DNA of 64,000 bases, from contig NZ_LN868939.1 of NCBI RefSeq assembly GCF_001182745.1, positions 372,001-436,000 on the forward strand, given 5' to 3'. The DNA is from Nocardia farcinica (GTDB taxonomy: Bacteria; Actinomycetota; Actinomycetes; Mycobacteriales; Mycobacteriaceae). Positions 40,262 through 42,567 of the stretch are shown here, piece by piece. The notes under the pieces are model-generated. The model was not told the DNA's origin, made no database searches, and was given only the letters and a program-made list of their open reading frames with translations. Numbering within the stretch: the first letter of the stretch is position 1; each line of letters starts with the position of its first letter. The translations under genes were made by a program, and so were the position numbers.

Positions 40262-40335
40262 CGGGGTGTGGCGCAGCTTGGTAGCGCGCTTCGTTCGGGA
40301 CGAAGAGGTCGCAGGTTCAAATCCTGTCACCCCGA
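40262..40335 (+). tRNA. tRNA-Pro (anticodon CGG)
   Basis: Cloverleaf: acceptor CGGGGTG paired with CACCCCG, D arm TGGCGCAGCTTGGTAGCGC, anticodon stem-loop CTTCGTTCGGGACGAAG (anticodon CGG), T arm GCAGGTTCAAATCCTGT, discriminator A. CCA is not encoded. It marks the left edge of a lower-GC accessory patch. Confidence 0.97.
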
Positions 40336-40358
40336 CTCGTGTGGTTGAGACACGATAG

Positions 40359-40396
40359 AGGCCCTGGCCGGTTCTTCCGGCCAGGGCCTCTTTTGT
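40359..40396 (+). terminator. Terminator of tRNA-Pro
   Basis: A 13-bp perfect stem (AGGCCCTGGCCGG, 40359-40371, with 40377-40389) has the five-base loop TTCTT and the tail CTTTTGTT. Confidence 0.92.
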
Positions 40397-40658
40397 TCCA
40401 CGCCACTGCAGCCCCGCCTTGCGGAGAGCAAAAGGGCTGCCGCTCTTGAGCCCTCTCGTGACTGGACGAAGTTCCATCCTGTGGCGGATGAACGGCCAAG
40501 GCCCGCAGCCGCAAAACACCGCTGGTTCACGCGCTCGACGACCACGCGAGAGGCAACAGCCCGCTCTACCTGCACCGATAGTTGGCAGAGGTTCTATGAT
40601 GACGCGCCCGGAGTAAAATCTGGAGCGGTAATTACTGCCGATAGTGTAGGGTTGAAGC
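40397..40658. other. Gap between the tRNA-Pro terminator and the accessory genes
   Basis: About 260 bases of lower GC with no supported gene. GATAGTGT near 40640 may serve as a -10 box for the 265-residue protein. No copy of the tRNA 3' end was found that would mark the far side of an island. Confidence 0.35.
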
Positions 40659-41456
40659 ATGAGTGCTGCAGATGATGCCCTTGCCAGTCTGAGTCAGTCA
40701 GGACTGCTCAAGATCCTCGCATGGGCAGCGCCTGTAGCGTTTGCCCGTACTGGCCAAGACTTCGACGAGGACGCCGGACACGACCAGATGGTCGTCGGCA
40801 CCCTCAACTACAAATACCTGTGCGACCTTCTGGATCGGGCCACATCGAACAGGCGGTTTGCCGTGGCCGAGGGTGTCGAAGGGGAAGGCGACGATATCCT
40901 TGGGCGCGGAATCACCCCTGAAGCCCGCCACACGATGCCATTCGTGCCTCCGGGCAGCATCGTTCGCAGTGACTACCAGGGGTCCCCAGGCTGGGCGGCC
41001 GACGGTTACCGAGTACTTCTGCAGTCGTTCAAGTATGGCGAGATTGATCATATCAACTGGGGCCAGCGAAGCGACGCCAAGCGGCGGGTGGCGTCACAGT
41101 CCTACGTCTCCCAGGACACTCTTTTCTCCATCGAGGAAATCGGCCTGGAGCCACTGGTCGCCACATGCGATGCCGATGACTTTGTAGGGACAACTCTCGT
41201 CGCTGCGCATTCCTACGACGCCATCACGGGTAAATTTGAGTTGTACATCGGCCAGAGCAAGAACCCGGAATTTCCGGGCGACGTGTGCTGGCACTGGCGG
41301 CACCAACTCCTTAATGGTGGCACTTCACCCCTCCCGACTGGCCAGACGCTGCCGCCCATTCTGCCGGGCGATGCTCCTTCGGCCCAGGCGGAGGAGATCG
41401 ACATCCGTCTCAAGAAGTCGCAGTCGGACGACGGCGCGGTCGACTCGAATGGGTAG
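40659..41456 (+). CDS. Unrecognised 265-residue protein paired with an XRE-ImmA/IrrE peptidase
   Basis: I do not recognise this family. It has an N-terminal helix (LSQSGLLKILAWAAPVAFAR), an acidic region, many aromatic residues in the middle (SDYQGSPGWAADGYRVLLQS, FKYGEIDHINWGQRSD) and a Pro-rich, charged tail (TGQTLPPILPGDAPSAQAEE). There is no membrane helix or signal. Its last eight bases overlap the start of the peptidase gene, so the two are translationally coupled and probably act together. GC content and codon use are lower than in the flanking core genes, which suggests acquisition by transfer. A role as toxin, antitoxin or defence partner is inferred from context only. Confidence 0.7.
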   Translation: MSAADDALASLSQSGLLKILAWAAPVAFARTGQDFDEDAGHDQMVVGTLNYKYLCDLLDRATSNRRFAVAEGVEGEGDDILGRGITPEARHTMPFVPPGSIVRSDYQGSPGWAADGYRVLLQSFKYGEIDHINWGQRSDAKRRVASQSYVSQDTLFSIEEIGLEPLVATCDADDFVGTTLVAAHSYDAITGKFELYIGQSKNPEFPGDVCWHWRHQLLNGGTSPLPTGQTLPPILPGDAPSAQAEEIDIRLKKSQSDDGAVDSNG

Positions 41457-42567
41457 CGGAGGACCGACTTCGCAGACACTCGCCAGTGCCACATCGTTTT
41501 TCAATGGTAGGCGACTGACGATGGCACGCCACCTCGCAGGGCTTAAGAAATCCCGCCTTGCGGAGCTGATCGGAATGTCACCGGCGTCGGTAACAGGATG
41601 GGAGAGCGGGGCAAAGCAACCCAACCGCGCAACTGTGGCAAAGCTTGCGCTTGCTCTGAAGGTTGAGCCTCAGTTCTTTTCGGGCGGCGTGCCTCCCCAA
41701 GTGGAGAAGCCGCACTTCCGTTCTCTGCGTTCCACGCCCCAGGTGGCCCAAGACGAGGCCGAGGCGTACGGACAGTTCGTCACGGAGATCGCCGTTCTAC
41801 TCGAAAAGGTGGTCGAGCTCCCAAAGCCGCTGCTACCCGACGTTCCCGTGTCACCGTCCGAGTTCGGCTCAACGCCAGAAGACGCCGCGCGCGAGGCGCG
41901 TCGATTTTTCGGGGTTTCTCCGGGTCCCATTCAGCATGTCGTCCGACTAGCCGAGCGCGCAGGCGTGGTCGTGGTTTTTAGCGAGCCAGGTATTGCATCA
42001 ATTGATGCATATTCTCTGCACACCGGCATCCGTCCAATTATCGTACTCAATCCCGTCAAGGACGACTACTATCGCCAGCGATTCGATATGGCCCACGAGC
42101 TAGGGCATTTGATAATGCACCACGATGCAGAACCTGGCGGGAAGATTGCGGAAAATCAGGCAGATCGATTCGCCGCAGAGTTCCTGATGCCAGCCGAGCA
42201 AATCGCACCGTACCTACCCAATAGTACTTCGGGGCGCGGCTGGGCAACATTGGCAGAACTAAAGGAGCACTGGGGCGTAAGTCTGGCGGCGCTTCTCTAC
42301 CGAGCTCGATCGCTTGGAATCATGGGAGATGTGACTTATCGAAACGCGATGATACGGATGTCACAGAACGGGTGGCGGCGAGCCGAACCGGGAAGGGTCT
42401 CATCGCTTGAGATGCCTTCAATGCTCCCACGGGCACGCGAGGTTGTTAATGCTGCTGGCATCGACGACAGCGTGTTCCTATCCGGCGCTGGCTTACCGAT
42501 TCACTTGTTCGAGGTTGCCACCTCCCGATCGCCTCAACGGGCGGATTCCGCTCGAGGTAGCGACTAG
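41449..42567 (+). CDS. XRE-HTH protein fused to ImmA/IrrE metallopeptidase (COG2856)
   Basis: This is a 372-residue protein. The N-terminal XRE helix-turn-helix (about residues 25-77, MARHLAGLKKSRLAELIGMS, SVTGWESGAKQPNRATVAKL) is followed by a linker and a COG2856 zinc-peptidase domain with FDMAHELGHLIMHHDAEPGG. H216, E217 and H220 form HExxH, and AENQADRFAAEFLMPAEQ supplies the third ligand region. In phages and ICEs, ImmA cleaves the ImmR repressor; in Deinococcus, IrrE cleaves DdrO after damage. HTH-peptidase fusions also occur in predicted toxin-antitoxin loci. Here the partner is the unrecognised gene overlapping by eight bases rather than a repressor. ATG 41449 is set by that overlap. 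Confidence 0.88.
   Translation: MGSGGPTSQTLASATSFFNGRRLTMARHLAGLKKSRLAELIGMSPASVTGWESGAKQPNRATVAKLALALKVEPQFFSGGVPPQVEKPHFRSLRSTPQVAQDEAEAYGQFVTEIAVLLEKVVELPKPLLPDVPVSPSEFGSTPEDAAREARRFFGVSPGPIQHVVRLAERAGVVVVFSEPGIASIDAYSLHTGIRPIIVLNPVKDDYYRQRFDMAHELGHLIMHHDAEPGGKIAENQADRFAAEFLMPAEQIAPYLPNSTSGRGWATLAELKEHWGVSLAALLYRARSLGIMGDVTYRNAMIRMSQNGWRRAEPGRVSSLEMPSMLPRAREVVNAAGIDDSVFLSGAGLPIHLFEVATSRSPQRADSARGSD

Follow-up and report, generated by a model that had tools for sequence, protein, structure and literature searches.

We analysed a pair of overlapping genes of Nocardia farcinica (assembly GCF_001182745.1, contig NZ_LN868939.1), located in a stretch of 64,000 nucleotides (positions 372,001 to 436,000 of the forward strand), which is referred to below as the window and from whose first letter all coordinates are counted. 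The first open reading frame (ORF1; 40659..41456, plus strand) encodes a protein of 265 amino acids (aa), and the second (ORF2; ATG start at 41449, 41449..42567, plus strand) a protein of 372 aa; they are treated here as the genes of an RmrT-like toxin and an RmrA antitoxin, respectively. The genes have eight bases in common, ATGGGTAG. An overlap of 8 bases was found again in two close relatives (L003 and L006) and in an Arthrobacter plasmid copy (L082), and one of 4 bases in the three distant copies of the host genus. Upstream of the pair lies a gene for tRNA-Pro (CGG), predicted by ARAGORN at 40262..40336 on the plus strand. The G+C content of the pair is 0.596, against 0.699 for the whole 64-kb window, and an equal or lower value was obtained for 2 of the 621 stretches of the same length into which the window was divided in 100-base steps. 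An earlier description made from the letters alone (the sequence-only reading) had pointed to two genes of low G+C with an eight-base overlap beside a tRNA-Pro gene, and the ARAGORN prediction, the ORF coordinates and the G+C scan all agree with it.

The antitoxin contains HTH_31/HTH_3 and Peptidase_M78 domains (Pfam) in a single chain, as the sequence-only reading had also recognised, and carries the signature HELGH. It matched 14 RmrA models of PADLOC, the best being PDLC03955 (348.7 bits, E 1.1e-104, residues 11-355 of 372). The CapP and CapH models of PADLOC matched it as well (8e-18 and 5e-4), and its score against the NCBIfam equivalog model for spr1629 (NF052239) was 135.6 bits, below the 335-bit cut-off. 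The HExxH signature is retained in 37 of the 38 distinct antitoxin-like ORFs of at least 300 aa (a probably unrelated one, L076, included), the sole exception being the broken frame of L009, and also in all three antitoxins of the plasmid copies. The solved structure of a 393-aa HTH cro/C1 protein (PDB 9vzy) matches residues 23-300 (E 8.9e-8) and may serve as a template. For the 265-aa toxin no family was found in Pfam, NCBIfam or PHROGs; the RmrT model PDLC03941 of PADLOC matched it weakly (22.6 bits, E 1.4e-5, residues 4-258), and such a match was obtained for 9 of the 30 members of its family alignment, the window toxin counted.

On these matches we assign the pair to RosmerTA (RmrT plus RmrA), a known anti-phage toxin-antitoxin family, an assignment which is secure on the antitoxin side and in gene order and weak on the toxin sequence. 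RosmerTA was reportedly discovered by Millman et al. in 2022. The sequence-only reading was right in proposing a coupled, mobile two-gene module of the toxin-antitoxin or anti-phage kind, in which the unknown protein is the partner of the peptidase; the type which it could not name is RosmerTA. Its further suggestion, that this was the best candidate in the window for an undescribed system, has to be rejected because PADLOC has models for, and names, both proteins.

The pairing of the two genes is strict when viewed from the toxin. A search of 5.8 billion proteins yielded 129 homologues of the 265-aa protein (176 by profile search), and those with an organism name were all from Actinomycetota among the matches listed (the best 120 of 129). 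A genome scan revealed 17 close loci (L001-L017), 16 of them in records labelled Actinomycetota and one (L007) in a metagenome bin labelled Acidobacteria. In all 17 an antitoxin homologue lies directly 3' of the toxin gene, its frame being broken in L009; identity to the window pair is 72-83% for the antitoxin (16 unbroken close loci) and 50-71% for the toxin. The two genes also adjoin each other in three distant copies of the host genus and in three plasmid copies (52-75% identity). Toxin homologues commonly lacking the peptidase gene were the pattern which the sequence-only reading regarded as speaking against a coupled system; what we found was a peptidase gene adjacent to the toxin in 23 of 23 relatives examined. 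This pairing does not hold in reverse. The toxin is present in 4 of 148 genomes of the host genus (its own genome included) and relatives of the antitoxin, mostly distant, in 81 of the 148 (E 1e-3); in the phylum, such relatives were found with the RmrA model in 17 of 296 genomes (E 1e-20). Since several loci had no plausible upstream partner, RmrA-like genes evidently also stand without a recognisable one.

The closest toxins (66-71% identity) were found, among the matches listed, in Actinomyces, Micrococcus, Kocuria and Rathayibacter toxicus, whereas copies from the host's own genus share 32-36% identity with the window toxin. This distribution argues for horizontal transfer, and on the strength of these protein comparisons the pair is a horizontally acquired copy. 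When the toxin-family profile was compared with the partner toxins of other host-genus copies, none of the matches was significant (the largest group reached a probability of 4.9), and a filter-free hmmsearch gave weak hints for two host-genus partners (L038, E 0.0036; L035, E 0.047). No tblastn match to the toxin was found in 50,697 phage records, and of 25 stretches of viral contigs which fitted a pattern none was confirmed.

Several further copies and variants were noted. The same genome carries a second RmrA-like gene (L075, C2:1766737-1767690) with its own upstream partner of 262 aa, which probably represents a second RosmerTA. A third, distant RmrA-like gene (L076) is probably unrelated; judged by eye, its neighbour encodes a subunit of succinate dehydrogenase, so that L076 is probably a housekeeping regulator. 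A further copy, L088 (719-1240), was found through its antitoxin in the genome of a distant actinobacterium, where a shortened toxin homologue (173 aa, E 5.9e-21) precedes the RmrA gene, and at L079 (G016:C18, about 21968-23053) an RmrA-like gene in pieces, with one internal TAG, represents a decayed copy. The database cluster P0001, identical to the window toxin, is 222 aa long, i.e. 43 residues shorter; the relatives conserve the N terminus of the 265-aa form, and a different start codon was likely chosen in the database.

The region behind the tRNA-Pro gene was compared in ten related genomes, which revealed that the downstream side of this gene is a variable slot in the host genus. In the nearest relative (G032), the homology breaks off at window position 40394 and is taken up again at 44227, and G032 has 1.9 kb of different sequence in between. 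In another relative (G033; L067, 1855-4707) a duplicate of the 3' end of tRNA-Pro lies 2.7 kb downstream, and the ORF between the two copies looks integrase-like by eye; a small integrated element perhaps occupies this slot. In the window the tRNA 3' end was not found a second time downstream, and hence no flanking pair of attachment (att) sites is visible, for which reason the idea of a tRNA-integrated element with att sites was dropped for the window copy. The slot also contains, outside the pair, a gene for a 115-aa DUF397 protein (Pfam; 42619..42966, minus strand).

A promoter- or operator-like element precedes the toxin gene (40601..40637, plus strand), consisting of a GACACGCC-like block followed by an AGTA-N17-TACT dyad (40612-40636). 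The upstream alignment comprised 19 loci (the window, L001-L017 and the Arthrobacter plasmid copy), and AGTG, GGTA or GGTG was accepted for the first half-site as part of the anchoring. The dyad is present in 19/19 of these loci, its TACT half beginning 25-28 bases before the toxin start (26 in the window), and TACTG likewise in all of them; the 42 columns farther upstream carry at most 0.8 bits each. In the form AGTRAAA-N14-TACTG the element occurs once in the 6.46-Mb genome, at this locus. Five distant copies outside the alignment (L072-L074, L083 and L084) have, by eye, TACTG in most cases and no AGTA half at that spacing. A scan for palindromes did not pick up a dyad ahead of the window toxin. 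We consider this conserved element a candidate operator, to which the antitoxin would bind.

The neighbourhood of the relatives was examined with a simple gene caller of our own and with PADLOC scans of 20 chosen neighbours, extended to homologues by BLAST. By this analysis, 12 of the 17 close loci (L002-L005, L008 and L010-L016) have other genes of known or candidate defence function no more than 5 kb away. They include Gabija or Gabija-like genes, a Hachiman helicase, a type IIG restriction-methyltransferase, SIR2-HerA with Uzume, and PDC-M36A. No defence gene was found among the scanned neighbours of L001, L006, L007 (a weak mad8 match), L009 and L017. In nine of the 17 loci (L003, L004, L008, L010, L011, L012, L014, L015 and L016; an unrecognised ORF at this place in L001 was left out) a known or candidate defence gene on the same strand, of three different kinds overall, starts between -4 (a 4-bp overlap) and +24 bp from the antitoxin stop. 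L011, L012 and L016 share a helicase gene and an MmeI-like type IIG gene upstream, followed downstream of the pair by SIR2-HerA, PDC-M36A and Gabija-like genes, respectively; from this gene order they appear to be composite operons with exchangeable defence cassettes. Gabija-like genes were also found near the distant copy L072, and PDC-S53 near the plasmid copy L082. The window copy has no downstream defence cassette, the next gene being that of the DUF397 protein on the opposite strand.

One recurrent neighbour is a 487-aa protein (L004:5498-6961, with homologues in L003, L012, L014 and L015) which matches only the PADLOC candidate PDC-M36A. Its gene overlaps the antitoxin stop by 4 bp in four of the five loci, and is followed by a gene for a Hypoth_Ymh-domain protein in L004 and for homologues of that protein in L012 and L015.

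Comparison with described systems places the pair among RosmerTA modules. It shares with them an antitoxin combining an XRE domain with an ImmA-type peptidase, an adjacent toxin gene, and relatives in defence islands and on plasmids; the window toxin, however, is weakly similar to one RmrT model. According to the available text of PMC10440598, different RmrT toxins pair with an ImmA-domain antitoxin, and the RosmerTA of Gordonia phage Kita protects against some coliphages; this system is phage-borne, in contrast to the window toxin, for which the phage records gave no match. RipAB of Streptococcus pneumoniae, to which the pair is related, likewise consists of a toxin and an XRE-peptidase antitoxin in one operon. 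In the available part of PMC12795458, RipA (Spr1630) is placed in the Rosmer family and is antagonised by RipB (Spr1629), no cleavage of the toxin being described there; substitutions in the hydrophobic pocket of the sliding clamp DnaN suppress RipA, and the RipA-DnaN interaction was detected in two-hybrid and split-luciferase assays. The window antitoxin differs from RipB in falling under the spr1629 cut-off. The toxin of SocAB of Caulobacter, too, is described as a clamp binder, which makes contact by means of the usual clamp-binding motif. The available part of PMC12795458 reports no resemblance between SocB, or its antitoxin, and RipA or RipB. The ImmR/ImmA system of ICEBs1 combines a helix-turn-helix repressor with an M78-type peptidase too, in two proteins according to the available account, compared with one 372-aa chain here. 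The same likeness is seen, through the model matches, to CapH/CapP of the cyclic oligonucleotide-based anti-phage signalling system (CBASS). CapH and CapP are two separate proteins, thought to control CBASS by repression and inactivation.

We propose the following mode of action. RmrA would bind the AGTA-N17-TACT site over the shared promoter and hold the toxin in check, until phage infection, or another upset of replication, disturbs RmrA and frees RmrT. The released toxin would dock onto DnaN, the beta sliding clamp, whose peptide pocket would receive an exposed loop of the Q-x-x-L-F type, so that DNA replication would stop and the infected cell be arrested. Among the mechanisms on offer, attack on the clamp has the best support, from the experiments on RipA and the motif pattern described below, and we judge it about evenly balanced between right and wrong. 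The same even chance is given to the complete reading of the pair as a transferred RosmerTA in the tRNA-Pro slot whose toxin docks onto DnaN and stops replication in the infected cell.

The candidate clamp-binding motif of the window toxin is QDTLF (residues 152-156; 41112..41126, plus strand). The bacterial consensus is QL(S/D)LF and is said to accept more variability (PMC9690074, available text). AlphaFold models of the toxin had a mean predicted local distance difference test score (pLDDT) of 67.5 with 30 sequences and 77.0 with 83, the latter with a predicted template-modelling score (pTM) of 0.71. The second model combines helices in the N-terminal part with a beta sheet and a loop, and QDTLF sits in this poorly predicted loop (mean pLDDT 48 and 44 for residues 151-160 and 161-170, and below 50 for residues 152-154 and 162-171). 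Of 83 relatives, 82 retain L155 and 81 retain F156. Among solved structures, the best value obtained in a search with the toxin profile was E 0.076.

We searched for such motifs in 52 partner proteins of RmrA (19 clusters) from the host genus, the phylum, plasmids and phages. The sample included five of the 17 close loci (L001, L004, L007, L013 and L017). Loci of another class, in which the antitoxin is followed by a PIN or PIN-like gene (L118 and L121), the shortened homologue L088, repeats of the window and of L075 (L089 and L105), L076, and loci with no plausible upstream partner (L026-L028, L098, L101-L104, L116, L119, L120 and L122; L102 has a 465-aa ATPase-like ORF at this place) were left out. 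The strict motif Q..[LM]F occurs 13 times in the 12,657 aa of the partners and 6 times in 51,592 aa encoded by 156 neighbour genes. Its cluster-weighted sum was 4.27 of 19, against 0.66 in shuffled sequences, a value reached by none of 400 shuffles (1 of 500 in another run). For Q..[LMFI][FDW] the sum was 10.88 against 3.75 (0/400), and for Q[LMGF][STA][LMFI] 4.04 against 1.50 (4/400). The exact sequence QLSLF is found in two partners (L094 and L125), and QL[SD]LF in none of the neighbour genes.

The position of the motif also recurs. Six of the 19 clusters contain the strict form, in five of them at 0.546-0.607 of the protein length, and in the 13 others Q..[LMFI][FDW] within 0.48-0.67 of the length gave a sum of 2.67 against 0.52 (15 of 1000 shuffles). 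Two partners fetched after this interval had been set, and standing outside the 52, agree with it: that of an Enterococcus phage (L127) has QYNLF at 0.591, and that of a Macrococcoides plasmid (L128) has QLVLNL at 0.562, a looser Q-x-x-L-x-L form which fits neither preset expression. The L128 antitoxin passes the curated spr1629 (RipB) cut-off (467.6 vs 335 bits), so its partner is, on synteny and not on alignment, an orthologue of RipA; the partner's related motif at the same relative place would link the pattern to a RosmerTA toxin with a demonstrated clamp target. That some of the partner clusters are enriched in the motif, as seen in this sample, is new here; we do not claim that the motif is unreported, although the term "motif" is absent from the available main text of PMC12795458 and "clamp" from the available text of PMC10440598.

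Several observations weigh against clamp docking by the window toxin. No RmrT model matches three distant toxin relatives or six other RmrA partners, and the Kita RosmerTA depolarises membranes instead (PMC10440598, available text). Position 152 is Q in just 25 of 83 relatives (D in 23, E in 13), Q being nevertheless the leading residue, and the conserved L-F may be structural. Residues 223-233 and 248-265 have low pLDDT as well, and such values may be a consequence of alignment depth. Enrichment is mild for x-x-[LM]-F (15.28 against 11.5, reached by 6 of 500 shuffles) and for LF alone (13.67 against 10.15, reached by 27 of 500). Eleven of the 13 strict matches lie in mid-protein, and six of the eleven come from the cluster formed by the window's own family; 13 of the 19 clusters have no strict motif anywhere, and in 10 of those 13 the broader mid-protein form is missing too. 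Finally, both the clustering and the interval, and every expression except the first, were chosen after part of the data had been viewed, and the neighbour-gene control came from a simple gene caller and from loci of the window's toxin family only.

Three other explanations within reach of the data were weighed. The toxin of a RosmerTA might be a DNA nuclease, or a degenerate one, with a PD-(D/E)xK-like fold, in which case binding to the clamp would merely tether it to replication forks. This we regard as unlikely. Foldseek searches with the two toxin models gave best E values of 0.26 and 0.76 with meaningless template-modelling scores, VIA Z values for the toxin model were all below 8 (human Rep15 in the top three rows), no canonical PD...ExK was seen by eye, and K201 is replaced by R in distant relatives. 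It is quite improbable, too, that the toxin acts on yet another target, e.g. the membrane as for the Kita toxin. The diversity of RosmerTA toxins (PMC10440598, available text) speaks for such a target, but the predicted structure of the window toxin is a globular domain of helices and a beta sheet, and PHROGs contains no match.

In a third explanation the pair is mainly a control module, in which RmrA would repress the following defence cassette and be inactivated to switch it on, the 265-aa protein being a sensor or co-regulator. The defence genes placed immediately behind the antitoxin, the differing cassettes of L011, L012 and L016 behind the same type IIG restriction-modification genes, and the CapP and CapH matches all favour this possibility. 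However, no cassette was recognised immediately after the pair in the window or in 8 of the 17 relatives, and RipA and the Kita RmrT are toxins according to the available texts; we consider a mainly regulatory role distinctly unlikely. A broader and rather doubtful proposal would combine these elements with attack on the clamp: a large part of the RosmerTA toxins, which cannot otherwise be aligned, may form one superfamily with a nuclease-like core and a mid-protein clamp-binding loop, RosmerTA would largely be clamp-attack systems, and in composite defence operons the pair would double as an interchangeable cassette for control or addiction, standing between restriction systems and changing downstream effectors.

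To conclude, the pair itself is one further RosmerTA, and this kind of system is already known. The parts most worthy of specialist attention are the motif pattern and the composite operons. If the motif result holds, the RosmerTA toxins which bear the motif acquire a single and easily tested target, the DnaN pocket; the published suppressor mutations of RipA would be explained at the residue level, and replication arrest would be tied to phage defence. The composite operons, in which the downstream effectors change while one pair is conserved, would in turn show a toxin-antitoxin system as a building block for defence.

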